A stretch of 64,000 nucleotides of DNA from Halobellus limi (GCF_004799685.1 NZ_CP031311.1:1426001-1490000), one strand, 5' to 3'; shown: positions 43,449-61,011, counted from the first letter of the stretch. Numbers and translations are program-made. The notes: generated from the sequence alone by a model not told the origin.

Positions 43449-46151
43449 ATGAAACGCCCTCCACGCGGTCCCGACTCGTCGGCCGAGGCCTCGCGGTCCG
43501 AGGACAGCGAGCGCATCTCGGACGCCGTCGATACCGCCGACCTCGATGGCGGTTCGAGAGCCACTGGACCCTCCCGACGCCGGTTTCTCGCCGGGATCGC
43601 CGTCGGTGTCGGTGGGGTGCTCGCCGGGTGCGGCGAGACGACGCCCGGCGGTCCCGGTACGGCCAGTGACACTGACGGAACCGACGGCTCGCCGACCGAG
43701 GCCACACCCGCCCGGCCCGGCCCCGCACCCGACGTCGCCGGCCCGTGGCCGCAGGCCCGCGCCGACGCGGGGAACACCGGCGCCGTCGACGCCTCGGGAC
43801 CGACCGCGGCCCCGAGCGTCCGGTGGGCGACGGACAGCGCCGGGACGGTCGGCGCGGCAGTCGGTGCGGCCCCGGAGGCGCGGGTCGAGGGAGGCGACGG
43901 CGACGCCCGAGACGCGGCGGTCGGCCCGTACGTCGTCGCCGAAGACGGCCGCGTCGCGGCGCTCGATTCCGCGGGCGAGGTCCGCTGGCGAGCGACGCTC
44001 GGCGACGGCCAGTTCCCGCCGGCCGCCGGGTCCGGGTTCGTCGTGGTCCCGACGCGCGAGCGACTCGTCGTCTTCGACGCCGCGAGCGGTGAGCGGCTTC
44101 GGGAGATCGACCTCCCCGGCGGCGTCCTCTACGCGCCGACGCTCGTCGGGGCGCGAGCGCTCGTCGGGACGTTCTCGAACGGGGTCGTCGCCGTCGACGT
44201 CGAGAGCGGCGAGGTGCTCTGGGAGGCGGTCACGCCCAGTCGGGCGTTCCCGCCGCTCGTCGTCGACGGCGTCGCCTACGTCACCGCGCGACGCTGGGAG
44301 ACGGGCGACGGCGGCGACGCACCGGGCGTGCTCGTCGCGCTCGACGCCGACTCGGGCGACCGGCTGTGGGAGCGACCGCTCGACGGCCCGCCGACCGCGC
44401 CGCCGGGCCATCGCGACGGCGTCGTCTACGCCGGTACGAACCGAGGTTCGGTGGACGCCGTCGACGCCGCGTCCGGCGATCGAATCTGGCGGGAGACCGT
44501 TGGCGACTGGGTGACCCGGGGACCGACCGCCGGCGCGGACGGCGTCTACGTCGTCGTGCTCGGGGAGGGCCCCGTGAAACTGGACCGCGACGGGACCGTG
44601 CTGTGGCGCTCCGACGTCGGCGGCGGGACGAATCCCGTGCTCACCGAGGACGACGTCGTCCTCGGCACCGACGGCGGCGTCGTCGCGGTCGGTCGAGACG
44701 ACGGCGAGGTGAGTTGGCGCGGGGAGACCGGTTCCGTCGTTCAGTTCGACGTTCGACTCCGCGACGGTACCGTCTACGCCGGCGACCAGTTCGGGACGGT
44801 CGTGGGGTTCGACGCCTCGACCGGGGACCGGAACTGGGAGTTCCCGTTCCGCCCGGCGACGATGCCCGGACCGGTCGTCGGCCCGCGGACCGTCGCCGGC
44901 GCGGCCGGGGACGGCGGAACGTACGACGTCCTCGCGAGCGAGGGCCAGGAGCTGTCGCTCGTCGGCGGGGCGGCCACCCCCGCGATCACGCCGGTGTTCC
45001 TCGAAGACGAGGCGGATGAGAGCGGGTCCGAGACGGGCGGCGAGGGAAGCGCCGGATCGCCGACGAGGACGGACGCGGGGACGAGGACGACGACGGCAGG
45101 CGGGTCAGCGACAGCCGAGGCGGGAGCGGAGACGCTCCTCGGCGGCGGCACCGACGGGTCGCTGTACCGCGTCCGGACGGTCGACTACGGGGACCCACCG
45201 GGAGACGAACTCGAACCCACGCCGACGCCGACCGCGACCCCCGATCCGGGGGAGCCGACGCGGACGCCGACGCCGCACATCGACCTTCCGGAACCGGAGG
45301 CGCTCTGGGAGCGCGACCTCGACGTGCGCCCGCGCTCGCCGGTCACGTACGCCGACGGGCGAGCGTACCTCGGGACCGACGAGGGAGTCGCCGCCGTCGA
45401 CCCCCGGAACGGGCGGTTGCTGTGGCGGCTCTCGCTGGCGACGGGAGACGACAGGAACGGGGACGACGGCGGCAGTGATGGGGGTAGCGGCGACGGGGGC
45501 AGCGGCGACGCAGACGACGGGTCGGAGGGCGGCGGCGGGCGCGTGAGCGGAGCGCCGGCGGTGACCGGAGAGCGCGCGTTCGTCGCGACCGACTCGGGGC
45601 GGCTCGTGGCCGTCGACCCGGGGACGGACTCGACGGCCGGCGGGGATGGCGACGGCGAGGGCGGAACCGCCCGCCCCGGGATCGAGTGGGAGGTGTCGCT
45701 GGGCGAGTCGGTCCGTGCCGGCCCCGTCGCGGTCGACGACTCGGTCTTCGTCGCCGACGAGTCGGGGCGAGTGACCGCCTACGACGTCGCCGGCGAGCGC
45801 CGCTGGCGGCGTGAAGTCGGCGGCGCGGTATACGGCGGCCCGTTGGTATCCGACGACCGCGTCTTCGTCGGAACGGACGCGGGCGAGGTCGTCGCGCTGA
45901 GTCGCGGCGACGGGTCCGTCTCGTGGCGACGCGAGACCGACGGCGGGGTCCGCGCGACGCCCGCGGTCGGACGCGAGACGGTGTACGCCGGTGATCACGA
46001 GGGGACACTCTGGGCGTTCGATGCGGCGAGCGGCGACGTCCGCTGGCGGCTGACGCTGGGGCGGTGGATGGATGCCCCGCCGGCGGTCGGTCACGGTGCA
46101 GTGTTCGTGGCCGATCAGACCGGGAACGTGTACGCGGTCGTCGGCGAGTGA
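43449..46151 (+). CDS. PQQ-binding-like beta-propeller Tat lipoprotein
   Basis: A 900-residue secreted lipoprotein. The Tat/lipobox signal is SRRRFLAGIAVGVGGVLAGC (cysteine at about residue 60), preceded by an unusually long cytosolic tail of about 40 residues. The mature protein has many PQQ/BamB-type blades, for example YVVAEDGRVAALDSAGEVRW, TFSNGVVAVDVESGEVLWEA, LGTDGGVVAVGRDDGEVSWR and YAGDHEGTLWAFDAASGDVR. Two Ser/Thr/Gly-rich spacers (about residues 520-560 and 670-700) separate propeller sets, so there are probably two propellers. It is anchored outside the membrane by lipid. Ligand and partner unknown; PQQ binding is not implied. Confidence 0.88.
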   Translation: MKRPPRGPDSSAEASRSEDSERISDAVDTADLDGGSRATGPSRRRFLAGIAVGVGGVLAGCGETTPGGPGTASDTDGTDGSPTEATPARPGPAPDVAGPWPQARADAGNTGAVDASGPTAAPSVRWATDSAGTVGAAVGAAPEARVEGGDGDARDAAVGPYVVAEDGRVAALDSAGEVRWRATLGDGQFPPAAGSGFVVVPTRERLVVFDAASGERLREIDLPGGVLYAPTLVGARALVGTFSNGVVAVDVESGEVLWEAVTPSRAFPPLVVDGVAYVTARRWETGDGGDAPGVLVALDADSGDRLWERPLDGPPTAPPGHRDGVVYAGTNRGSVDAVDAASGDRIWRETVGDWVTRGPTAGADGVYVVVLGEGPVKLDRDGTVLWRSDVGGGTNPVLTEDDVVLGTDGGVVAVGRDDGEVSWRGETGSVVQFDVRLRDGTVYAGDQFGTVVGFDASTGDRNWEFPFRPATMPGPVVGPRTVAGAAGDGGTYDVLASEGQELSLVGGAATPAITPVFLEDEADESGSETGGEGSAGSPTRTDAGTRTTTAGGSATAEAGAETLLGGGTDGSLYRVRTVDYGDPPGDELEPTPTPTATPDPGEPTRTPTPHIDLPEPEALWERDLDVRPRSPVTYADGRAYLGTDEGVAAVDPRNGRLLWRLSLATGDDRNGDDGGSDGGSGDGGSGDADDGSEGGGGRVSGAPAVTGERAFVATDSGRLVAVDPGTDSTAGGDGDGEGGTARPGIEWEVSLGESVRAGPVAVDDSVFVADESGRVTAYDVAGERRWRREVGGAVYGGPLVSDDRVFVGTDAGEVVALSRGDGSVSWRRETDGGVRATPAVGRETVYAGDHEGTLWAFDAASGDVRWRLTLGRWMDAPPAVGHGAVFVADQTGNVYAVVGE

Positions 46152-49076: not shown

Positions 49077-49418
49077 CGTTCGGAGATGACACCGCAACCG
49101 GTTAATCGGTTCGGCGGGCCGTCCGTAGTCGGAGAGAAAATCCCAAAATTCTGAGTATCCGATACGGGCCGATACGGACGGGAAGATCCGGACCGAGCTT
49201 CGAGGAGATGTATGGGCTTAATCAGATCAGGGAGGGCATAAATAGCGAGTGAATCGCCGTATGAGGCCGATCGAAGCGTTTTCCACCGGTGTCGTTTTCC
49301 GGGTCCGAACGCTGCGGTTCGACGGCTCGTCCACCGCACTCTTCGTGTCATATATGTTGATATTACTCCCTGAAACTGGTTTCTAACAAAGTCCAAACGC
49401 TCGGACCAATGGGTGGAG
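49077..49418. promoter_or_regulatory. Upstream region of the surface-protein operon
   Basis: No gene is visible in these 342 bases. The segment is more AT-rich than its surroundings and has plus-strand TATA-like motifs at GGCATAAATAGCG (about 49237-49249) and CATATATGTTGATATTAC (about 49349-49366). The second would start transcription near 49385, giving a leader of about 35 nt. GGGTGGAG just before the ATG at 49419 is a possible ribosome binding site. Confidence 0.45.
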
Positions 49419-52364
49419 ATGTCCGCCCACGTCTTATCGATCACTCTCTCCGTCGTACTCGTTCTCGCGATGGGCGCTAGTGGCGCCGTCGGCAGTTACC
49501 ACGAATCACCCGGAGCGGACACGTCCCCGGCGGTCGCGGGAGATACTGGAGACAGTGTTTGGAGTGATCGAGCCCCGGGTGAGCACGACCGATCCGTAGG
49601 CGATTTCGATCCGTCGGCCTCCACGCGCGACCGCGAACCGGTCCCTGACGATGCAAGAGCACGCGAGCGGATCGCGTCGGCGAGCACGACCCAAGAGATC
49701 CAAGAAGACGTCTCCTGGCTGAACGCCCCCGAAGGATTCCGCGTGACGGAGTTTTCGACGGCGGACGAACTCGGTGGGAGGGACACCTTTACGGCCGGTC
49801 CGACACCGGGTGCGCGGATCCTCCGCTTTCACAACGACACGCTCTACGTGTCGGTCCCGACCTTCGGTGCCGGAACTGACCGGATACTCGCCCTCCCGGA
49901 CGACGACGGCGACGGAGAGGCCGATCGGGTCGTCACGGTGCTCGAGAGTCCCGAAATAAGCGACGCCCACGGCTTCGACTTCGCCGACGACCACCTGTAT
50001 CTGGTCAATCACGGCCCCCATAGCGAACAGAACAACATCGTCCGGTATCGGATGTCGGGGCTCTCGGTCGACACCTCCTCGAGGACCGTTCTCAACGACA
50101 GCCTCCCGAGTAGAGGGGAGTACTGGCACTGGACGCGAACGCTCGAAGTGCGGGACGATCACCTCTACGTCGCCGCCGGCTCGGAGTCGAACGTCGACGA
50201 GTCCTCGGGCGGCTGGTACGCCCGGATGACGCGCTGTGACGTCGACGGATCCGACTGCACCTCCTACGCCGAGGGGCTCCGGAACGCCGTCGGATTCACT
50301 TTCCACGACGGCGAGCTGTTCGCGACGGACAACGCGCGGGACGACCTGACCGACGAACTCCCGCCCGACGAGATCAACGTCGTCCGGCAGGGGGCCCACT
50401 ACGGGTGGCCGTACTGCTACGGGGACAACGTCGCCGACCCCGCCTTCGACGATCCGAGCAAGTGTACCGACAAGGCCACACCCGCGGTGAACCTCCGGGC
50501 GCACACGGTTCCGCTGGGCCTCGAGTTCTACACCGCGGACGCGTTCCCGAGCGAGTATCGGGGCGATCTGTACGTCGCGATGCACGGGAGCTACAGCGCG
50601 ATTCCGCCGCGCGGGTACAAGGTCGTCCGCGTCCCCTACGACGACGGGACGCTCGGGACGCCCGAGGACTTCGTCACCGGGTGGTACGACAGCGACGGCG
50701 ACGGAGATCCCTACGAGAAGGGCGAGGACATCCTCGGGCGGCCGGTCGACGTCGCGGTCGGCCCCGACGGGGCGATGTACGTCTCCGACGACTCCGGGGG
50801 CGCGATCTACCGGATCGCCCCGACGAACACCGCGCCGCGGGCGAACGTCTCGTGGTCGCCAGAGCGCCCGGAGACGAACGAGACGGTCGCGTTCGACGCG
50901 TCGAACTCGACCGATCCGGACGGGTCGATCGCGAGTTACGAGTGGGACTTCGACGGCGACGGGGCCGCAGACGCCACCGGCGAGACGGCCAACTGGACGT
51001 TCCCCACAAGCGGCGAGCGGACGGTGACCCTGACGGTCACCGACGACGGCGGGGCCACGGACGCCCAGCAAGTGACGCTCACCGTCGAGGAGCCACCGTC
51101 GCCGGCGAACTTCCGGATCGGGAACGTGACCGCGCCGGACAGCGTGACCCGGGGGGACCTCATCAACGTCTCAGCGGAGATAACCAACGTCGGCGATCGA
51201 GAGGCGACTCAAACCGTCGAATTCCGCCTCGATGCGGACGGTAACGGGACGCTCGAACCCAACGAATCGCTCGATTCGACGACGGTGAGGCTCGGCGGCA
51301 CCGAATCGACGACCGTGGCGTTCGTCGGGATCGAGACGTCCGAACTCGCGCCGGGCGAGTACACCCACGGCGTCGTCACGGCGAACGAGACGGCCACCGC
51401 GACGGTCGCCGTCGAGGCACCGAACCGCCCGCCGACCGCCGACGCCGGTGAGAACCGGACTGTCGAGGAAGGGGACTCGGTGAGCCTCGACGGCTCCGGC
51501 TCCAGCGACCCCGACGGAGACACGCTCGCGTACGCCTGGACGCAGACGGCCGGTCCGACGGCGTCCGTGGCCGACGAGACCTCGGCCACGCCGACGGTCA
51601 CAGCGCCCGAAGTCGACGCCAACCGGACGCTCGTCTTCGAGCTGTCGGTCTCCGACGGTAACGGCGGCACCGACACCGACGCGGTGACGGTCGAGGTACT
51701 GGACGATCCGGACCCGCCGGATCCGGCTCCGCCGGCGACGACGGTGACGCTCTCGCCCGAGCAGTCCGAGGTTCTGATCGGCGAGAACGCGACGTACGAC
51801 GTCGTCGTCGACAGCGTCGACGGCGGGGTCGGCGCGTACAACCTGAGCGTCTCGGTGGAGAACGAGAGCGTCGCCACCGTCGCTGACGCCGGCGTCTCGG
51901 GCACCCCGAGCCGGACCGACGTGAGCTACGGGGCGGACGGCTCGACGGTTCGGATCGAGGCGACGGGCGCGGACACCGCAGACACCGGGAGCGTCGCCGT
52001 CGCGTCGGTCGTGGTCTCCGGATCGACGGCGGGAACGAGCGATCTCACCGTCGCAGCCCGGTCGATCGAGACCGAGAACGGGACCGGATACAACGTCACC
52101 GAGGAGCGCGACGCGTCGGTGACGGTCTCCGCGCTCGATCCGATCGGGGAGTTCGAGAACCCGCCGACGGATCCCGACGGAGACGGCCTGTACGAGGACG
52201 TCAACGGTGACTCGCAGTTCGACGTCGTCGACGTTCAGGCGCTTTTCGCCAACCGGAACGATCCGGCGGTTCGAAACCGGCCGGATCGATTCGACTTCAA
52301 CGGAGACGGGCGCGTCGACGTCGTCGACGTGCAGAGACTGTACTACGAGGTGCTAACCAAATGA
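49419..52364 (+). CDS. Giant secreted sugar-dehydrogenase-like propeller protein with PKD, CARDB, cohesin-like and dockerin modules
   Basis: A 981-residue exported protein. Signal peptide: SITLSVVLVLAMGASGAVG. Residues about 80-465 form a glucose/sorbosone-dehydrogenase-like propeller (GHYGWPYCYGDN-type motif in VRQGAHYGWPYCYGDNVADP; VAVGPDGAMYVSDDSGGAIY). Next come a PKD domain (about 470-554), CARDB (about 561-667), a REJ/PKD-like domain beginning PPTADAGENRT (about 670-760) and a cohesin-like beta domain (about 773-904). A type I dockerin-like end follows (918-981) with two calcium-loop/helix units, VNGDSQFDVVDVQALFANR and FNGDGRVDVVDVQRLYYEV. Its stop overlaps the next gene (ATGA). Enzymatic activity is unproven. 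Confidence 0.85.
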   Translation: MSAHVLSITLSVVLVLAMGASGAVGSYHESPGADTSPAVAGDTGDSVWSDRAPGEHDRSVGDFDPSASTRDREPVPDDARARERIASASTTQEIQEDVSWLNAPEGFRVTEFSTADELGGRDTFTAGPTPGARILRFHNDTLYVSVPTFGAGTDRILALPDDDGDGEADRVVTVLESPEISDAHGFDFADDHLYLVNHGPHSEQNNIVRYRMSGLSVDTSSRTVLNDSLPSRGEYWHWTRTLEVRDDHLYVAAGSESNVDESSGGWYARMTRCDVDGSDCTSYAEGLRNAVGFTFHDGELFATDNARDDLTDELPPDEINVVRQGAHYGWPYCYGDNVADPAFDDPSKCTDKATPAVNLRAHTVPLGLEFYTADAFPSEYRGDLYVAMHGSYSAIPPRGYKVVRVPYDDGTLGTPEDFVTGWYDSDGDGDPYEKGEDILGRPVDVAVGPDGAMYVSDDSGGAIYRIAPTNTAPRANVSWSPERPETNETVAFDASNSTDPDGSIASYEWDFDGDGAADATGETANWTFPTSGERTVTLTVTDDGGATDAQQVTLTVEEPPSPANFRIGNVTAPDSVTRGDLINVSAEITNVGDREATQTVEFRLDADGNGTLEPNESLDSTTVRLGGTESTTVAFVGIETSELAPGEYTHGVVTANETATATVAVEAPNRPPTADAGENRTVEEGDSVSLDGSGSSDPDGDTLAYAWTQTAGPTASVADETSATPTVTAPEVDANRTLVFELSVSDGNGGTDTDAVTVEVLDDPDPPDPAPPATTVTLSPEQSEVLIGENATYDVVVDSVDGGVGAYNLSVSVENESVATVADAGVSGTPSRTDVSYGADGSTVRIEATGADTADTGSVAVASVVVSGSTAGTSDLTVAARSIETENGTGYNVTEERDASVTVSALDPIGEFENPPTDPDGDGLYEDVNGDSQFDVVDVQALFANRNDPAVRNRPDRFDFNGDGRVDVVDVQRLYYEVLTK

Positions 52365-55300
52365 GCGTAACCGACAATAAATTCACATTAGACACGAAGA
52401 GTATCATCGTCCTGACGGTCGCCGCCCTCGTCGCGGTCGGAAGCATCGGCGGGGCGGCCGCGGGGGTCGGCTCTCTCGGCGGCCTCCAGATGGTGACAGC
52501 CCAGGAAGAAGAATCGAAAGAGACGGCGGTTCGTCTCGAACCGAGCAGTGCCACGGTCAATCCGGGACAGACGACGACGTACGACGTTGTCGTCCAGGAC
52601 CCGGTCGCGACACCCAACGGCAGCATCGCCGCTTACGAGCTGACAGTCTGGATCGAGGAGTCGCAGGTCGCCTCCATCACCGATTTCAGTATCGTCGGAG
52701 ATCCCGGGCTAGCGGACGTGAACGAGGACCCTAGTAACTCATCGGTTCGGGTCTCCGTGGCTCTGGCGAACATATCCGGGACCGACAACGTCTCGATCGG
52801 AACCGTAACCGTTCGTGGCCAGGCACCCGGAAACAGTGACATCGGGCTCAGCGTGAATTCTCTGGGTGATCCGGAGGGCAATTCTTATACCGTGACTGAG
52901 ACGCCCGGCGCATCGATCACCGTCGAATCGCCGGGACAACCCGAATCCGACCCGGCTGACTTCGAGGTGTCGAACCTGCAGGCGCCGTCGAGTGCGATGC
53001 AGGGTGACTTGATCGACGTCTCCGCGGACGTCGAAAACGTCGGCGACTCCGAGGGAACGCAGACGGTCGGGTTCCGGATCGGATCCGGTTCTCTCGAATC
53101 GGATGACGACTTCCTCACACAGGAGGTGACGCTGGAGAGCGGCGAGACCGAGACCGTCACGTTCAGCGATATCGACACGAGTAGCCGCTCGCCCGGGGAC
53201 TACACCCACGGCATCTTCACCGCCAACGACTCCGAGACGGCGACGATCACCATCGAGGAGCGACCGGAGACCAGCGTGAGTCTCCAGCCGAGTACCGCGA
53301 CGGTCGACACCGGTGAGACGACGACCTACGACGTCGTCGCCGACAGCGCGTCCGAAGGCGTCGGCGCCTACAACTTCACCGTCAGCGTCGCGGACACGTC
53401 CGTCGCCTCGATAACCGACGCCGAGGCGTTGGCGAACGCGTCCACGACCGACGTCTCCGTCGCGAGCGACGGCTCGTCGGTCGAAGTCGTCGGCGCGATG
53501 GCGGACACGTCCGACACCGGGAGCGTCACGATCGGGAACGTGACCGTCGAAGGCGTCGACCCCGGAAATAGTGCAGTCGGACTCAGCGTGGAAGCGCTGG
53601 GCACGCAAGCGGGCGACGGGTACGAGGTAACTGACACGTCCGGCGCGTCGATCACCGTCGAGGCGCCCGGGGGCGATCCCGGTCCCAGTCCTGATCCTGG
53701 TCCGGCGGACTTCGGAGTGTCGAACCTCCAGGCCCCGTCGAGCGCGACGGTCGGTGACTCGATCGACGTCTCCGCGGAGATCACCAACACCGGCGACTCC
53801 GAGGGAACCCAGTCCGTCGACTTCCGCCTCGATCAGAACGACAACGACGACCTCGAAACCAACGAGACCCTCGACTCCCAGAACGTGACGCTGGGAGCGG
53901 GCGAGAGCACGACCGTGACGTTCAGCGATATCGACACCAGCGGCCTCGAACCGGGCGAGTACACCCACGGCGTGGCCACGGCGAACGAGACGGCCACCGC
54001 GACGATCGAACTCACGGCTGCCAACGAGCCGCCGACCGCTGACGCCGGCGAGGATCAGACCGTCGTGGAAGAGGCGTCCGTGACGCTCGACGCGAGCGAC
54101 TCCACCGACCCGGACGACGACTCGCTCGCGTACGCGTGGACCCAGACCGACGGCCCGAACGTCTCGCTCCCTGATTCGAGCGCGGCGGATCCGTCCTTCA
54201 CGGCTCCGGACGTCGACGAGGAGACGACGCTGACCTTCGAGGTGGAGGTCAGTGACGGCGAGGGCGGCACCGACACCGACGAGGTGACGGTGACCGTGCT
54301 CCCCGCCGAGGAGGAGGCGTTCTTCGCTGTCACCTCGCTGGACGTGCCGGCCGAAGTCCAGCAGGGCGAGTCCGTCGAGGTCACCGGCGAGATCACCAAC
54401 ACCGGTGACGTCGAGGAAACGCAGACCGTCGAGGTCCGCATCGACTTCGATCGGGACGGGACTCCGGAGACGGTCCAGTCGCGGTCGATAACCCTCGCGG
54501 GCGGGGAAAGCACCTCGCTGACGCTCACTCGAACCGTTCCCCCGGCCGTCTCACCGGGGACGTACACCGGCGGCCTGTTCACCGACGATGACTCCGAGAC
54601 GGCGACGGTGACGGTCGTCCCGCCGTCACAGGGCCCGCCCGAGGAGAACGAACCGCCGACCGCCGACGCCGGCGATGATCGGACCGTCTCCGAAGAGAGC
54701 ACTGTGACGCTCGACGCCAGTGGGTCCACGGACCCCGACGGCGACTCGCTGTCGTACACGTGGACCCAGACCGACGGCCCGGACGTCTCGCTCTCTGATT
54801 CGAGCGCGGCGGATCCGTCCTTCACGGCCCCATTGGTCGACGATGAGACGACGCTGACCTTCGAGGTGGAGGTCAGTGACGGCGAGGGCGGCACCGACAC
54901 CGACGCGGTGACGGTGACCGTCGAGCCGGTCGAGACCGCCGGAGCGTTCTTCGAGGTCACGGCCCTCCACGTTCCGGATCGAGCGGCACAGGGCGAATCC
55001 GTCGAGGCCACCGGCGAGATCACCAACACCGGTGACGCCGAGGGCACTCAGACCGTCGAGGTCCGCATCGACGTCGACGGCGACGGTACCCCGGAGACGA
55101 TACGGTCGCGCTCGATAACCCTCTCCGCCGGGGAAAGCTACTCGATGACGGCGACGCGAACCGTCCCGACGGATCTGGAACCGGGGACCTACACCGGCGG
55201 CCTGTTCACCGAGGACAGCAGCCTGACGGACACGATCGAGATCGTGGCGGCCCAGCCGGACGAGCGGTTCACGCGCGATGAGATCGCCCAGGCCAAGTAC

Positions 55301-55798
55301 GGGTACGACTTCGACGAACTCAGCGACGAGACGTCACGGGAGGTCGAGGAGCTGTACAACCGTCAGCCGTTCGCAGACGGTGCACACCCCGAGGACGTCA
55401 AGACGCGCGACGAGATCGCACAGGAGCGTCACGACAGGGACTTCGACGAACTGAGCCGCGAAACCACGGTCGAGATCCAGTCCGACTTCGACGCGCAGTT
55501 CGGCGATACGGGCGACGACGCGGAGTACACCCGCGACGAGATCGCCCAGGCCAAGTACGGCCACGACTTCGACGAACTGAGCACCGAGACCTCCGGACAG
55601 GTCGAGGAGCTGTACAACCGCCAGCCGTTCGCAGACGGTGCGAGTCCGAGCGAAGTCCAGACTCGCGAGGAGATAGCGAACCAGAAGTACGGAATGGACC
55701 TCGACGAGCTCAGTCGTGAGACGCGACTGGAAATCGAGGGAACGTACCACGAACAGTTCGCGGCGTCCACGGAGGGATCCGAGCAGTCACCGGAGTAA
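52361..55798 (+). CDS. Giant secreted modular surface protein: two cohesin-like, four CARDB, two PKD-like domains and four 44-residue repeats
   Basis: A 1145-residue exported protein; the N-terminal signal is TKSIIVLTVAALVAVGSIGG. Order: cohesin-like 1 (about 54-182), CARDB 1 (198-295), cohesin-like 2 (304-430), CARDB 2 (447-547), REJ/PKD 1 (554-648), CARDB 3 (652-757), REJ/PKD 2 (761-858), CARDB 4 (861-965). Four repeats follow, starting at 971, 1015, 1057 and 1101 with consensus TRDEIAQxKYGxDFDELSxE. There is no membrane helix or sorting tag at the C-terminus. It is coupled to the dockerin-bearing gene by an ATGA overlap, so a cohesin-dockerin pairing between the products is a natural inference. 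Confidence 0.85.
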   Translation: MSVTDNKFTLDTKSIIVLTVAALVAVGSIGGAAAGVGSLGGLQMVTAQEEESKETAVRLEPSSATVNPGQTTTYDVVVQDPVATPNGSIAAYELTVWIEESQVASITDFSIVGDPGLADVNEDPSNSSVRVSVALANISGTDNVSIGTVTVRGQAPGNSDIGLSVNSLGDPEGNSYTVTETPGASITVESPGQPESDPADFEVSNLQAPSSAMQGDLIDVSADVENVGDSEGTQTVGFRIGSGSLESDDDFLTQEVTLESGETETVTFSDIDTSSRSPGDYTHGIFTANDSETATITIEERPETSVSLQPSTATVDTGETTTYDVVADSASEGVGAYNFTVSVADTSVASITDAEALANASTTDVSVASDGSSVEVVGAMADTSDTGSVTIGNVTVEGVDPGNSAVGLSVEALGTQAGDGYEVTDTSGASITVEAPGGDPGPSPDPGPADFGVSNLQAPSSATVGDSIDVSAEITNTGDSEGTQSVDFRLDQNDNDDLETNETLDSQNVTLGAGESTTVTFSDIDTSGLEPGEYTHGVATANETATATIELTAANEPPTADAGEDQTVVEEASVTLDASDSTDPDDDSLAYAWTQTDGPNVSLPDSSAADPSFTAPDVDEETTLTFEVEVSDGEGGTDTDEVTVTVLPAEEEAFFAVTSLDVPAEVQQGESVEVTGEITNTGDVEETQTVEVRIDFDRDGTPETVQSRSITLAGGESTSLTLTRTVPPAVSPGTYTGGLFTDDDSETATVTVVPPSQGPPEENEPPTADAGDDRTVSEESTVTLDASGSTDPDGDSLSYTWTQTDGPDVSLSDSSAADPSFTAPLVDDETTLTFEVEVSDGEGGTDTDAVTVTVEPVETAGAFFEVTALHVPDRAAQGESVEATGEITNTGDAEGTQTVEVRIDVDGDGTPETIRSRSITLSAGESYSMTATRTVPTDLEPGTYTGGLFTEDSSLTDTIEIVAAQPDERFTRDEIAQAKYGYDFDELSDETSREVEELYNRQPFADGAHPEDVKTRDEIAQERHDRDFDELSRETTVEIQSDFDAQFGDTGDDAEYTRDEIAQAKYGHDFDELSTETSGQVEELYNRQPFADGASPSEVQTREEIANQKYGMDLDELSRETRLEIEGTYHEQFAASTEGSEQSPE

Positions 55799-56947: not shown

Positions 56948-57967
56948 TCATAGGACTTCGATATGTTCGCGGCGCTGTTCCATCCGGTCGCGAAGCTTCT
57001 CCTCGCGGGGACGCTCGTCGTAGTGCTGTTCGATCACTTCTTGCGTCGCGTTCACCCGACGCTCGATCACCTCCGCCGGCAGCCCCTCTCGCTTCATCCG
57101 GATGATCGCCGCCGACCGGACGTCGTGGGGAGACCGCGACGACGGACACAGCGACCGCCGACCGGTTTCGGTAGCCTCGCACGTCTCGATCTCCCGATCG
57201 TGCGGACACCCACCGATCCAACACGGCGTCGTCAGCCGGTAGATTAGTTCCCGAATCGCTGACTCGGAGAACCGCCCCTGACGCGTCGAGATCAGCGGCC
57301 GTCGGCCCTGATCGTCGGTGACGTCGTGGCGGTTCACCCGGCGGTAGTCCTCGATCAGCTCGACGATCTCGTCGGTCAGGGCGACCCACCGCTCGCCCGA
57401 CGTCCCGTTCTTCAGCGGCGTCGCCGGCGGTCGGTGATTGAACTCGACGAAGTTCTCGTCGGGGTGGAAGTCACCGACGTCGATCGCCCGGAGCCCGCCG
57501 AGACGACACCCGATATGGAAGAACAGCGCGAGCGTCACGTGATCGCGACTCGCGTACTCGAACTTCGCCAGATAGTCGAGCACGTCGTCGACGCGATCGG
57601 GCTGAAGATCGTGGGTCCGAACCAGTTCGTCCTCGTTCAGCGACGGGATGCGGACCTTCGAGGCGATCCCCTCCGGTGCGGCCTCGATCGATTCGCAGAA
57701 CTCCAAGAACGCCTTGTAGGTAAAGGAGTTCCCGCGGAGTGTCGACGGTGCGACCTCGCAGTCCTCGATACGGTACCGCCGGTACCGAGCGAGATCACGG
57801 CCGGTCAGTTCGGTCAGGTCGTCGATTCCCTCCTCGTGGAGCCACTTCTTCAGCTGCTTCAGCCGATACTCGTGGGCCCGACGCGACCGCTGGCGAAGAT
57901 CCACCCGATCCGAGAGGTACATTTGAATCGCTTCGTCGGGCGAGATCGGATTCAGGTCGTCGCTCAC
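56948..57967 (-). CDS. Tyrosine recombinase/integrase (XerC/D-like)
   Basis: A 339-residue site-specific recombinase. A SAM-like core-binding domain covers residues 1-105 (YRLKQLKKWLHEEGIDDLTE). The catalytic domain has box I R155 in FFHIGCRLGGLRAIDVGDF, HxxR with H281 and R284 in SRSPHDVRSAAIIRMKREGL, and the nucleophile Y316 in ATQEVIEQHYDERP. A cysteine set (C249, C254, C263, C274) in the insertion before the HxxR may hold zinc. The start is GTG at 57967, overlapping the stop of the upstream Cys-rich gene (GTGA). It probably moves the island that extends to the right. Confidence 0.92.
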   Translation of the reverse strand: MSDDLNPISPDEAIQMYLSDRVDLRQRSRRAHEYRLKQLKKWLHEEGIDDLTELTGRDLARYRRYRIEDCEVAPSTLRGNSFTYKAFLEFCESIEAAPEGIASKVRIPSLNEDELVRTHDLQPDRVDDVLDYLAKFEYASRDHVTLALFFHIGCRLGGLRAIDVGDFHPDENFVEFNHRPPATPLKNGTSGERWVALTDEIVELIEDYRRVNRHDVTDDQGRRPLISTRQGRFSESAIRELIYRLTTPCWIGGCPHDREIETCEATETGRRSLCPSSRSPHDVRSAAIIRMKREGLPAEVIERRVNATQEVIEQHYDERPREEKLRDRMEQRREHIEVL

Positions 57968-58467
57968 GCCCGATCACCGTCCCTATCGCCGCAGTACCCA
58001 CAGTTCGCCTTCGGACAGAACACGCGCGACCCGACCGCGTCGCAGAAGTGGGAATTCGCTCGGTCGCGACGACGCGTCGGCTTCTCGTGACCCATCGGCG
58101 CGCCGCGGCCGTCGGTTCGAAGGCTGTACGTTCCGCTCGTCGTTGAAGGATTCCGATCCATAGGTTCGCTCGAAGTCAAAAATCCGATCTCGTGACCGCA
58201 CGGCTTCAGCGTACGCCGACCCGGAGCGTCCGCGGAGATCCCCGCGACCTCGCACCCGCATATCGCGCACGCGCCGTTGTTCGTCGTTGATGCCGCTTTC
58301 GTGCCGGGAGTTTCAAGCCCCCGGAGAGAGTTGGTTTGCATAGGTTCTGCGCCACTTCGCAGGACCTCACGCGGGCCCGCTGCGCCCACAGCGGGGTCCG
58401 CTTCGATTTCGCAATGGACCCGATCGCCGAGCGACGGGTCCGCGATAGGCTCCTGCTGATTCCCCAT
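57964..58467 (-). CDS. Cys-rich accessory protein of the integrase operon
   Basis: A 167-residue protein that I do not recognise. Cysteine motifs: GACAICGCEVAG (CxxCxC), LKPCGHEIGF, and at the C-terminus NSHFCDAVGSRVFCPKANCG ending CGYCGDRDGDRA, enough for two zinc sites. The N-terminal third is variable. The ATG at 58467 lies about 22-27 nt from a minus-strand TATA-like TACTTATTA (about 58482-58490), so it is leaderless. It overlaps the integrase GTG by four bases and is therefore made with it. It could be a recombination-directionality factor or DNA-binding adaptor, by position only. Confidence 0.65.
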   Translation of the reverse strand: MGNQQEPIADPSLGDRVHCEIEADPAVGAAGPREVLRSGAEPMQTNSLRGLETPGTKAASTTNNGACAICGCEVAGISADAPGRRTLKPCGHEIGFLTSSEPMDRNPSTTSGTYSLRTDGRGAPMGHEKPTRRRDRANSHFCDAVGSRVFCPKANCGYCGDRDGDRA

Positions 58468-58502
58468 CGTAACTAATTGGTAATAAGTATTGATGCCGAA
58501 CG

Positions 58503-58559
58503 CTATCATAGAAGTAGTTAATGCTATCAAGCATCCAAACATCCATAATACTATGATAG
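58503..58559. promoter_or_regulatory. Paired TATCATAG operator sites in the divergent promoter
   Basis: CTATCATAG (58503-58511) and its exact complement CTATGATAG (58551-58559) flank the AT-rich spacer between the integrase operon and the phiH1-type repressor gene. A partial third copy, GCTATCAAGC, lies near 58523-58532. The right site overlaps the repressor's own TATA region (about 58546-58556), as expected for autoregulation. Confidence 0.6.
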
Positions 58560-58581
58560 AGCCTGCTAAGACCCGGATGTT

Positions 58582-58851
58582 ATGCGTCGGCCGGTGGTGT
58601 CGTGGATGACAAAATCCGACGACGCCATTCTCGAACTTCTGGCAGAAGCGGGGATCGCTATTCCTCCGACAGCGATTGCGTTCAATATAGAAAATGTCTC
58701 GCGGCCGACCGTTGATCGTCGTCTCCCGAATCTGGAAGCTGTCGGTCTCGTAAAGCGCTTCGACGAGCCGCAAGGGTACACCGAAATCACCGAAAAAGGA
58801 AAATTGTACCTCGCGGGCGATCTCGACGAAGACGACCTCCCGGAACCGTAG
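58582..58851 (+). CDS. phiH1-type winged-helix repressor
   Basis: An 89-residue winged helix. It begins MRRPVVSWMTKSDDAILELL, the same opening (MR.P..WM...DD.ILE.L) as halophage phiH1 repressor-like proteins, which is why the ATG at 58582 is preferred over that at 58606. Then come IAFNIENVSRPTVDRRLPNL (recognition helix) and VKRFDEPQGYTEITEKGKLY with the conserved ITEkGk.YL motif. It is divergent from the integrase operon and probably represses both directions through the TATCATAG sites. The toxin-antitoxin pair follows 39 bases downstream. Its last codons (E-P-stop) mark the left boundary of the duplicated module. Confidence 0.82.
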   Translation: MRRPVVSWMTKSDDAILELLAEAGIAIPPTAIAFNIENVSRPTVDRRLPNLEAVGLVKRFDEPQGYTEITEKGKLYLAGDLDEDDLPEP

Positions 58852-58890
58852 CGACAGAACGCTTATTCGACCAGTGCTCAAAGAGAAGGT

Positions 58891-59157
58891 ATGGCGAGCG
58901 CGACACGCGACGCACCCGATGAGGAGGGCGTCGAGTTCATCCACGAGGAAGACGGCAAGATCACCGCCAAGGATCTCGAAACCGGTGTCGCGTCCTTCGG
59001 CGACACGAAGGCCGAAGCCCTCCGGATGCTCGCGGAGGCGATCGAGCTTCACGAGGGCGGCGGCGAGCCCGTGACCGAGGAAGACCTCGAAGAATGGGGT
59101 CTCGACCCCGATCCGGTGCCGGACGAGCCGAAGGAACTCCCTGATTTTATGAAGTGA
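58891..59157 (+). CDS. hicB: HicB-like antitoxin (copy 1)
   Basis: An 88-residue protein with the partial RNase-H-like HicB fold: FIHEEDGKITAKDLETGVAS, then FGDTKAEALRMLAEAIELHE, the sequence by which HicB antitoxins are recognised. There is no separate DNA-binding domain, unlike longer HicB proteins, so the neighbouring phiH1-type repressor may do the regulation. TATA-like CTTATTCG (58862-58869) lies 27 nt upstream, so the message is leaderless. The stop is followed at once by the HicA ATG (TGAATG). It should neutralise HicA by direct binding. Confidence 0.85.
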   Translation: MASATRDAPDEEGVEFIHEEDGKITAKDLETGVASFGDTKAEALRMLAEAIELHEGGGEPVTEEDLEEWGLDPDPVPDEPKELPDFMK

Positions 59158-59409
59158 ATGGTCCGGACGAACTTCTCCGGACACGATATCGCGTCGGTGC
59201 TCCACGACTTCGGCTACAAGCGTGTCGGCCGTGTCGGGAGCCACCTGAAGATGCGCTACGAGTCGCCGGACACTGACGAAGTTCGAATCGTCTCGATCCC
59301 GATGAAGTCCGAGGATGAAATCCCGACCGGAACCCTCCAGTCGATCGCTGATCAGTGCGGTGCGGAGGACTTCCACGCGTGGTGCGAGTGGATCGACGAG
59401 CATCGCTGA
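59158..59409 (+). CDS. hicA: HicA toxin, mRNA interferase (copy 1)
   Basis: An 83-residue dsRBD-like HicA: MVRTNFSGHDIASVLHDFGY, then GRVGSHLKMRYESPDTDEVR with the catalytic His in GSH, and PTGTLQSIADQCGAEDFHAW. HicA toxins cleave mRNA and are held by HicB. It is contiguous with hicB, with no intergenic base. It is tail-to-tail with the 92-residue gene, 5 bases apart. The likely role is stabilisation of the island or phage-induced growth arrest. Confidence 0.88.
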   Translation: MVRTNFSGHDIASVLHDFGYKRVGRVGSHLKMRYESPDTDEVRIVSIPMKSEDEIPTGTLQSIADQCGAEDFHAWCEWIDEHR

Positions 59410-59414
59410 CGCGT

Positions 59415-59693
59415 TCATACTTCCTCCGAACCGCCTCGGACGGCTCGAATCTCGATTCTCGATAAGACCGGCTCGATCCACTCGGGGAGCCGGCCGATCT
59501 CCCAGCGCGAGTACGCGATCTCGTCGTTGACGACGAACTCCCAGGTGTCGCTTCCGGCGTCGACGACGACTCGGCTATCTGGGTTGTCGAAAACTAACAG
59601 CGTGATCGCGCCGATGTCCGTCTCTTCGACGTCGTCGGGCTCGATCGTCGTGACGTGGTCTGCGTTCCGTGGATTTGGTGGTATTCGTTGCAT
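59415..59693 (-). CDS. Uncharacterised 92-residue protein convergent with hicA
   Basis: Not recognised. The sequence is acidic and beta-rich by inspection (VTTIEPDDVEETDIGAITLL, VVVDAGSDTWEFVVNDEIAY, LPEWIEPVLSRIEIRAVRGG), with no Cys and no membrane segment. A minus-strand TATA-like TTTTTACATA (about 59717-59727) is placed 27-30 nt from the ATG, so it is probably expressed. A truncated copy lies at 61531-61653. It is not related by eye to HicA or HicB, so it may be a third component of the module. Confidence 0.65.
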   Translation of the reverse strand: MQRIPPNPRNADHVTTIEPDDVEETDIGAITLLVFDNPDSRVVVDAGSDTWEFVVNDEIAYSRWEIGRLPEWIEPVLSRIEIRAVRGGSEEV

Positions 59694-59760
59694 CCACGAG
59701 ATCCGACAATGGGTATGTAAAAAGTGAAACCGGGCGTGATATCGGAAACGGAACGGAAAC
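59662..59760. repeat. 99-bp perfect direct repeat, copy 1
   Basis: Bases 59662-59760 are identical to 61622-61720. They contain the first 11 codons of the 92-residue gene, its promoter, and a plus-strand stretch ending in ATATCGGAAACGGAACGGAA. This is far more similar than the flanking hicA/hicB coding sequence, which points to recombination or gene conversion. Confidence 0.95.
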
Positions 59761-59859
59761 GTCGATTTCGGCGTTTTTAGGTTATCCAGACGTCAGCGAA
59801 CGGCAAAATATCGGAAATATCGGAAGTGTTGCCGTGATGCGATTAGCGGAATATCGGAA
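59739..59859 (+). repeat. Four copies of ATATCGGAA
   Basis: ATATCGGAA occurs at 59739-59747, 59808-59816, 59817-59825 and 59851-59859, all in the same orientation, the middle two adjacent. Copy 2 of the module keeps two (61699-61707 and 61802-61810). Same-direction short repeats in an AT-rich, gene-free stretch resemble iterons or a regulator-binding array; the last copy is exactly at the module boundary. Confidence 0.85.
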
Positions 59860-59884
59860 ATGGCCTATGTGCTGGTCCCTTACG

Positions 59885-59891
59885 TATATAA
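59885..59891 (+). promoter_or_regulatory. TATA box of the protease gene
   Basis: TATATAA centred 27 nt before the ATG at 59915, which fixes that ATG as the start of a leaderless message rather than any upstream in-frame codon. Confidence 0.75.
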
Positions 59892-59914
59892 TGCCAGTTT
59901 ACAACCTATTTGTG

Positions 59915-60784
59915 ATGTCAGTTGAAAATAAAATACGGGATGCAACCTGTAGGGTGGATTCAAGAGGGTCACAATTGGGTTCTGCGTTTTGGGTGGATAG
60001 CAATTTGCTACTTACTGCTGCCCACGTTGTAGAGGCGAGTCCAGATGAGACTGTATCTATTCGGACTGTCGATGGCGAGTCATTTCAGGCAGATATTGTA
60101 AAAAAAGACGTGAATACCGATCAGAATTCGGGATCTGATCTCGCCCTACTGGAAGCAGATGTTCCTCCCGAGGATTATGAGGTTCTTCCAATGAATACAG
60201 AAATTCCTTCGATCGGCACCGAGGTATTGTGGTCTGGATACGCACGTCTCGTGGGAGAACCCAAAATAGACAGACAGCGTTTTGGCTGGGGGCGAGTCGC
60301 TTCCACTGAATACGGAGAAGGGGAAGGAAGTTTCTTCGAGGTAGACGGGCTGTTCAATCCCAGCCACAGCGGTGGACCTGTTATAGATAATGCTAGTGGA
60401 AATGTGGTTGGGGTTGTCTCTGCCAGTGCTGGTGGATTTGGCGATGTTGAGCAGAAGTGGACGGAACAAATTACCCAACTTCAGGAACTGTTCAAATTAC
60501 AGTCCTCTTCGGACGGAATGCTCTTTCGAACATATGAATATGAAGACCCAGGAAGAGGCATTCAAGCAAAAACTGTTTTCCAGAGTATGGGTTTGAATGT
60601 TGACTCAGATGTAGATGATGATGGAAATATTCACCTTCAGATTAACACAGAAGAGATTCCCTTAGCAGCCGGGAAAATTCAGGCCGAACTTGCAAAGTTA
60701 CTTCTCGATACCTCGCAAGCTACATTTCAAATGGGCGTTGGAATTGCCTCGGGTGGAAGCTTTCTAAAAGAATTCATTAGATGA
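59915..60784 (+). CDS. Trypsin-like serine protease, AT-rich cargo gene 1
   Basis: A 289-residue cytosolic protein with a chymotrypsin-fold protease domain: catalytic His37 in LLLTAAHVVEASPDETVSIR, Asp75 in NSGSDLALLEADVPPEDYEV and Ser152 in FNPSHSGGPVIDNASGNVVG. The usual GNSGGP is SHSGGP. No signal peptide, so it acts inside the cell. Residues about 205-289 form an unassigned C-terminal domain (GIQAKTVFQSMGLNVDSDVD). Base composition and codon use are much more AT-rich than the island's hic genes and the chromosome, indicating separate acquisition. Cytosolic trypsin-like proteases are common effectors in prokaryotic defence loci; that role is an inference here. Confidence 0.85.
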   Translation: MSVENKIRDATCRVDSRGSQLGSAFWVDSNLLLTAAHVVEASPDETVSIRTVDGESFQADIVKKDVNTDQNSGSDLALLEADVPPEDYEVLPMNTEIPSIGTEVLWSGYARLVGEPKIDRQRFGWGRVASTEYGEGEGSFFEVDGLFNPSHSGGPVIDNASGNVVGVVSASAGGFGDVEQKWTEQITQLQELFKLQSSSDGMLFRTYEYEDPGRGIQAKTVFQSMGLNVDSDVDDDGNIHLQINTEEIPLAAGKIQAELAKLLLDTSQATFQMGVGIASGGSFLKEFIR

Positions 60785-60799
60785 ATAGTTGAGACAGTA

Positions 60800-60948
60800 T
60801 CAGGGTTCTTGAAACTCGTACCGTTTCCCCCGACCAGCCCCCGCCGACGTGATTAGTTCGTCCTGCTCCAGCGACTGCAAATACTTCCGCCGCGTACTCT
60901 TCACCCGTGGATTCTGAACCCGATCCTCATACGAGCGTGTAACGTCGA
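60800..60948 (-). pseudogene. Orc1/Cdc6 C-terminal winged-helix fragment
   Basis: Read on the minus strand, the last about 49 codons encode VDVTRSYEDRVQNPRVKSTR and RKYLQSLEQDELITSAGAGR, nearly the same as the C-terminus of the Orc1/Cdc6 gene at the right edge (NPRVKSTRRKYLQSLE vs DPRVKSTRRKYLQSLE). No AAA+ part is attached: upstream the frame runs into the promoter of hicB copy 2. It is a stranded remnant of a second cdc6 gene, cut at the left edge of the duplicated module. Confidence 0.85.
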
Positions 60949-61011
60949 CGCGTCGATCTCTCCGAACCGTAGCGACAGAACGCTTATTCGATCGGTCCCC
61001 AAAGAGAAGGT

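Follow-up and report, generated by a model that had tools for sequence, protein, structure and literature searches.

The window analysed here is a stretch of 64,000 nucleotides (nt) from the haloarchaeon Halobellus limi. It holds two adjacent genes, designated P1 and P2, in which the TGA stop of the first and the ATG start of the second overlap as ATGA. This pair probably encodes a noncellulosomal cohesin-dockerin assembly at the cell surface. The following features (positions in the window; aa, amino acids) have been recognised in the two genes:

49413 to 52364, plus strand: P1, a presumably secreted multidomain protein of 983 aa (GTG start at 49413, alternative in-frame ATG at 49419)
49698 to 50822, plus strand: GSDH (glucose/sorbosone dehydrogenase) propeller, P1 aa 96-470 (Pfam PF07995)
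50826 to 51083, plus strand: PKD domain of P1 (Pfam)
51102 to 51401, plus strand: CARDB-like module of P1 (DNA 71% identical to that of the second P2 CARDB over 300 nt)
51444 to 51698, plus strand: second PKD (K319L-like) domain of P1 (Pfam)
51729 to 52136, plus strand: cohesin-like domain, P1 aa 773-908 (homology to the P2 copies, AlphaFold, Foldseek/VIA)
52170 to 52361, plus strand: type I dockerin of P1, with two complete loops and a conserved acidic DPDGDGxYED stretch ahead (PF00404, genome scan, 30 homologues)
52361 to 55798, plus strand: P2, a scaffold-like protein of 1145 aa with two cohesins (ATG start at 52361)
52514 to 52933, plus strand: cohesin-like domain 1, P2 aa 52-191 (alignment, profile)
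52952 to 53248, plus strand: CARDB module of P2 (Pfam, DNA comparison)
53261 to 53668, plus strand: cohesin-like domain 2, P2 aa 301-436 (alignment, profile)
53702 to 55240, plus strand: CARDB-PKD-CARDB-PKD-CARDB spacer array of P2 (Pfam, DNA comparison)
55265 to 55774, plus strand: C-terminal tail of P2 (TRDEIAQ.KYG.DFDELS.ET repeats)

A preliminary description of this DNA had placed both genes correctly (the ATG at 49419 is in frame with the P1 stop, which ends at 52364, and P2 runs from 52361 to 55798), and the overlap of the P2 start at 52361 with the P1 stop supports the translational coupling that it had proposed. The sorbosone-dehydrogenase-like propeller and the two-loop dockerin of P1 have likewise been recovered, as have the CARDB/PKD modules of P2 (four CARDB and two PKD by Pfam); the CARDB-like module of P1 had no match in the Pfam search of that protein. 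The two cohesin-like domains described in P2 are real and mutually homologous, but a third one had been overlooked, located in P1 just before the dockerin.

The P2 copies of this domain align to the P1 copy at 35% and 46% identity. The genome has been interrogated by family and by profile searches. A profile built from the three window copies retrieves only five convincing copies genome-wide, namely the query domains themselves and a further two at 1.588 Mb, while Pfam Cohesin (PF00963) has no match anywhere in the H. limi genome, including all three window domains. The same Pfam model finds cohesins above its cut-off in 107 of the 292 Halobacteria that make up the survey sample, of which 116 are counted as having a Pfam cohesin. 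Of 36 sequences in the family of the window domains, two give a match to Pfam Cohesin (best E 1.8e-4), and a 36-row profile compared with the PDB gave sub-threshold matches only, two of the three being scaffoldin cohesins. For the window domains themselves, the tie to Pfam Cohesin by sequence was not significant, hence the recourse to structure. An AlphaFold model of the P1 cohesin and dockerin, based on 30 homologues, shows a mean pLDDT (predicted local distance difference test) of 95.3. Foldseek ranks almost wholly cohesins for the cohesin part (E 3.5e-10), the noncellulosomal cohesin of Archaeoglobus fulgidus (2xdh) being third, and VIA-align superposes it best on 1g1k (Z 14.9, 2.1 Å over 128 residues), with Z 14.0 for 2xdh. 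Because of this model and its matches to solved cohesins, the P1 copy is assigned a cohesin fold as predicted structure, whereas the P2 copies are taken as cohesins by homology to it. The window domains would represent an apparently new cohesin subfamily mostly missed by the current Pfam model.

The dockerin is matched by Dockerin_1 (PF00404) at P1 aa 927-976 with 25.6 bits, above the curated cut-off of 22.9. Every calcium position is filled in loop 1, DVNGDSQFDVVD (aa 929-940), and in loop 2, DFNGDGRVDVVD (aa 961-972). Both loops fit the D1-N/D3-D5-x9-D12 pattern, whose key positions vary little or not at all among 30 homologues. The DPDGDGxYED stretch before the loops is also near-invariant in this set, and it may constitute an additional, third site for calcium that is peculiar to this group. 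One further Pfam dockerin exists in the genome, on a second cohesin-dockerin protein, and each of these two (exactly two in all) is C-terminal and followed directly by a cohesin gene.

The cargo candidate of P1 is the GSDH propeller (PF07995, 51.4 bits against a cut-off of 25), which matches structures 6jt5 and 2ism and is resembled by bacterial "sorbosone dehydrogenase family" proteins at 33-38% across nearly its full length. It shares its family with the pyrroloquinoline quinone (PQQ)-dependent sugar dehydrogenases, such as the pyranose dehydrogenase 6jt5, and the signature stretches GLRN..G, DEIN...YGWP, HT.PLGLEFY and LYVAMHGS..PP.GYKVV align with these solved enzymes and their relatives. 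In P1, unlike in these enzymes, the propeller shares its chain with PKD, CARDB-like, cohesin and dockerin modules, and both its activity and its cofactor are predictions. The modest score, together with the fact that relatives of the pair often carry just PKD, CARDB or malectin modules, would suit a binding or structural propeller in place of an active oxidoreductase, the whole being an adhesin or surface coat. We consider this somewhat unlikely in view of the aligned signature stretches and of the retention of the propeller in a second haloarchaeal family, whose C-terminus differs; it would fit either docking model discussed below. At E <= 1e-30, the P1-type propeller is restricted to H. limi and one other genome of the sample (G268, 70% identity), there in a protein with a C-terminal paired-helix tag (described below) instead of a cohesin-dockerin and with no cohesin match. 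This distribution would fit a laterally gained enzyme provided with different local surface tags. The propeller was rejected as the standard cargo of the pair, being present in 2/292 Halobacteria, one of them with this cohesin-less copy.

The tail of P2 is made of two similar units of ~86 aa, each with two half-repeats (four repeats in all), and it matched no Pfam family. It is apparently new and represents a candidate surface-retention domain, a role that is putative. Tails of this type (TRDEIAQ.KYG.DFDELS.ET...RQPF) have been found in 33/292 Halobacteria. With few exceptions they form the very end of secreted surface proteins, among which several have multiple cohesins (window 55265-55774, L054, L055, L058, L059, L115-L124).

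The pair of H. limi is not unique: the order [cargo-cohesin-dockerin] then [cohesin] is a recurrent gene pair, common in Halobacteria but so far little described. Pfam dockerins occur in 128 of the 292 genomes and cohesins of the window subfamily in 123. A cohesin, whether of this subfamily or of the Pfam type, is present in all but 11 of the dockerin genomes (117/128, odds ratio 18, p 4e-23). Among loci picked by their cohesins, 31/33 cohesin-dockerin open reading frames (ORFs) are directly followed by a cohesin ORF in the same orientation, in 29 cases abutting or overlapping, in a set that is redundant and biased toward cohesin-rich places. Among loci picked by their dockerins, ~22/40 strong matches are followed downstream by a cohesin ORF, a lower bound obtained with two home-made profiles. 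A scan of genome contigs with a narrower cohesin alignment gave 14 named loci. Among the cargo proteins are subtilases, a 5'-nucleotidase-type protein and PKD proteins: all five long dockerin proteins looked at in the dockerin-picked set are S8 subtilases ending in Dockerin_1, the cohesin downstream of subtilase genes being mostly a ~250-350-aa protein, and in Haloferax such an end is shared by a beta-helix protein and by a 5_nucleotid_C protein, the 5'-nucleotidase-type cohesin-dockerin gene lying beside one for an anchored cohesin (L063). Secreted S8 subtilases with such an end and a cohesin gene next downstream recur at L077, L079, L086, L094 and L107. The partner exists in two forms, one with a single cohesin and a C-terminal transmembrane-like segment (L010, L016-L019, L022-L024, L061 and the Haloferax loci) and another with two to three cohesins and a P2-type tail, without membrane segment (L054, L055, L058 and L059; hosts Halorubrum, Halobellus, Haloarcula and Halogranum). 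The frequency of the pair in haloarchaea is apparently a new observation, though the 2009 survey of noncellulosomal modules by Peer et al. may cover part of it.

Because a cohesin gene accompanies the dockerins of Halobacteria, very often adjoining, these dockerins are better interpreted as assembly tags. The haloarchaeal papers found mention dockerins solely as substrate-binding modules (PMC10963439, PMC13260240). Following them, the dockerin could be a module for substrate binding or stabilisation, the cohesin-like domains structural spacers, and the genes neighbours for other reasons. The failure of Pfam Cohesin on these domains and the plentiful beta-type PKD/CARDB spacers of the pair agree with this idea, which is nonetheless quite improbable: the fold search returned cohesins almost exclusively, dockerin and cohesin modules are strongly associated both in adjacency and in genome co-occurrence, and an archaeal cohesin-dockerin pair with measured binding is known from A. 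fulgidus.

In the assembly that we favour, both proteins would be exported, as their hydrophobic N-termini suggest. P1 would expose its sugar-dehydrogenase-like propeller on a PKD/CARDB stalk ending in cohesin and dockerin, and P2 would present its two cohesins from a long stalk of CARDB/PKD modules, presumably kept at the surface by its repeat tail, which would replace the membrane anchor of many relatives' partner cohesins. The two dockerin loops would fold on calcium, and the dockerin would then enter a cohesin, most likely one of P2. The P1 cohesin would remain as a free socket for another dockerin protein, giving rise to chains or small clusters.

The co-occurrence and adjacency of dockerins and cohesins support this assembly, and several observations weigh against it. 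In a mirror-tree test, the dockerin showed no independent relation to the downstream cohesin after correction for the cohesin of its own protein (partial r 0.06, permutation p 0.30). A model of an in-frame dockerin-to-cohesin read-through from the second locus of the genome was weak (predicted template modelling score 0.54), with a poor dockerin that merged with the signal-peptide helix, and is therefore uninformative about docking in either direction. Furthermore, the P2-type partners have no obvious membrane anchor, the function of their tail is putative, and the binding of the P1 dockerin to the P2 cohesins is a step that we infer.

The preliminary description had viewed the pair as an enzyme plus a scaffold. 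The enzyme-like cargo and the scaffold-like partner stand, and the pair is a real candidate for such a system, but P1 has a cohesin of its own; therefore, the two roles are not cleanly split and self-assembly becomes possible. The P1 dockerin would then bind P1-type cohesins in head-to-tail chains, with P2 nucleating or cross-linking them instead of being a separate scaffold. Cohesin and dockerin do share one chain in P1 and in nearly all relatives, and in the same mirror-tree test the dockerin distances track the own-protein cohesin (partial r 0.55). However, linked sequences of a single gene are expected to correlate in this way, and in many relatives the partner of the dockerin gene encodes a separate cohesin with a membrane anchor, for which pure self-assembly would have no need. 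We judge self-assembly unlikely and the surface assembly of P1 on P2 probable.

Pairing of cohesin and dockerin is generally presented as a bacterial device for the degradation of cellulose, and the preliminary description had called the P1/P2 pair cellulosome-like. The clostridial cellulosome (type I) does share with it the cohesin fold, the two-loop dockerin, a multi-cohesin partner and an enzyme-like cargo, and P2, with two cohesins (up to three in relatives), has the several cohesins expected of a scaffoldin. The comparison fails on cargo. No glycoside hydrolase or cellulose-binding module has been found on either of the two dockerin proteins, P1 (Pfam) and the second one (signal peptide-PKD-cohesin-dockerin), and Pfam shows neither of them in P2, where matches to Sde0182_C overlap the PKD domains. 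In addition, cohesin and dockerin share one chain in P1, and the genome has just two Pfam dockerins. The pair is of the archaeal noncellulosomal kind, with A. fulgidus as closest precedent. In this archaeon, the dockerin of ORF2375 and the cohesin of ORF2376 (2xdh), encoded by adjacent genes, show strong and specific binding and have served for display on Escherichia coli (PMC9705933). The binding was measured there and is predicted for P1/P2, and the papers compared on the A. fulgidus pair mention neither a GSDH propeller nor a CARDB/PKD stalk or repeat tail. Anaerobic methanotrophic (ANME) archaea also possess noncellulosomal dockerin and cohesin proteins, some of them scaffoldin-like with multiple cohesins, which earlier-surveyed archaea were said to lack (PMC9012536). 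Their cargo consists of ABC-transporter binding proteins (PMC9012536), in contrast to the GSDH of P1 and the subtilases and 5'-nucleotidase-type protein of other haloarchaea. An oxidoreductase cargo on a cohesin-dockerin protein is apparently new, as the preliminary description had anticipated: in the literature searched, no paper joins a dockerin with sorbosone dehydrogenase, and two further GSDH domains adjoin the other pair of the genome.

More generally, and tentatively, haloarchaea may use a calcium-dependent cohesin-dockerin "click" system, encoded in self-contained gene pairs, to fix varied secreted proteins to the surface (proteases, nucleotidase-type proteins, sugar oxidoreductases and lectin-rich giants), of which the window pair would be a redox enzyme on a multi-cohesin scaffold with a new retention tail. 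This would provide a directly testable mechanism for the retention of secreted enzymes at the archaeal S-layer, and engineering could draw on such loci for salt-stable cohesin-dockerin pairs.

The second pair of H. limi lies at 1.57-1.59 Mb (G000:C1), with its components on one strand. The dockerin protein, whose homologue at L061 has the same make-up, is accompanied by a 313-aa cohesin protein with a hydrophobic N-terminus and a C-terminal transmembrane-like segment, by a giant protein (3,637 aa; seven malectin, six PKD and two GSDH domains), and by two proteins with a C-terminal paired-helix tag (IGTQEIQQAIDLW...ISTAQMQQLIDMW). About 11 other genomes keep the order of a malectin protein of 2,000-3,700 aa that carries the tag internally, a cohesin-dockerin protein and a cohesin protein. 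Because neither GSDH query retrieves the other, the window GSDH is placed by sequence in a different branch from those of the second locus; the window pair has the appearance of a more compact relative of this cluster, with a GSDH propeller placed directly on the cohesin-dockerin protein.

The cluster with the giant malectin/PKD protein is conserved in haloarchaea (L137:4796-15706, L010:1-9863, L138, L140-L151), and the giant protein carries GSDH in H. limi and in G217. The paired-helix tag (QEIQQAIDLW...IDTAQLQDVIDAW) looks like dockerin helices without calcium loops; it occurs in 39/292 genomes, 21 matches being found in G213 alone, and examples lie at L010:3985-4170, L010:6640-6855, L069:3420-3563 and L069:5299-5442.

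Upstream of the window pair, a 900-aa ORF (43449-46151) shows a lipobox-like N-terminus and repeated PQQ-like beta-propeller blades. Downstream, the G+C content drops from ~0.65 to 0.48 in the region 56948-61000, which includes an integrase-like ORF (56948-57967, minus strand), small HicB/HicA-like genes after it (58891-59409) and a trypsin-like protease ORF; the edge of an integrated element probably adjoins the pair here.

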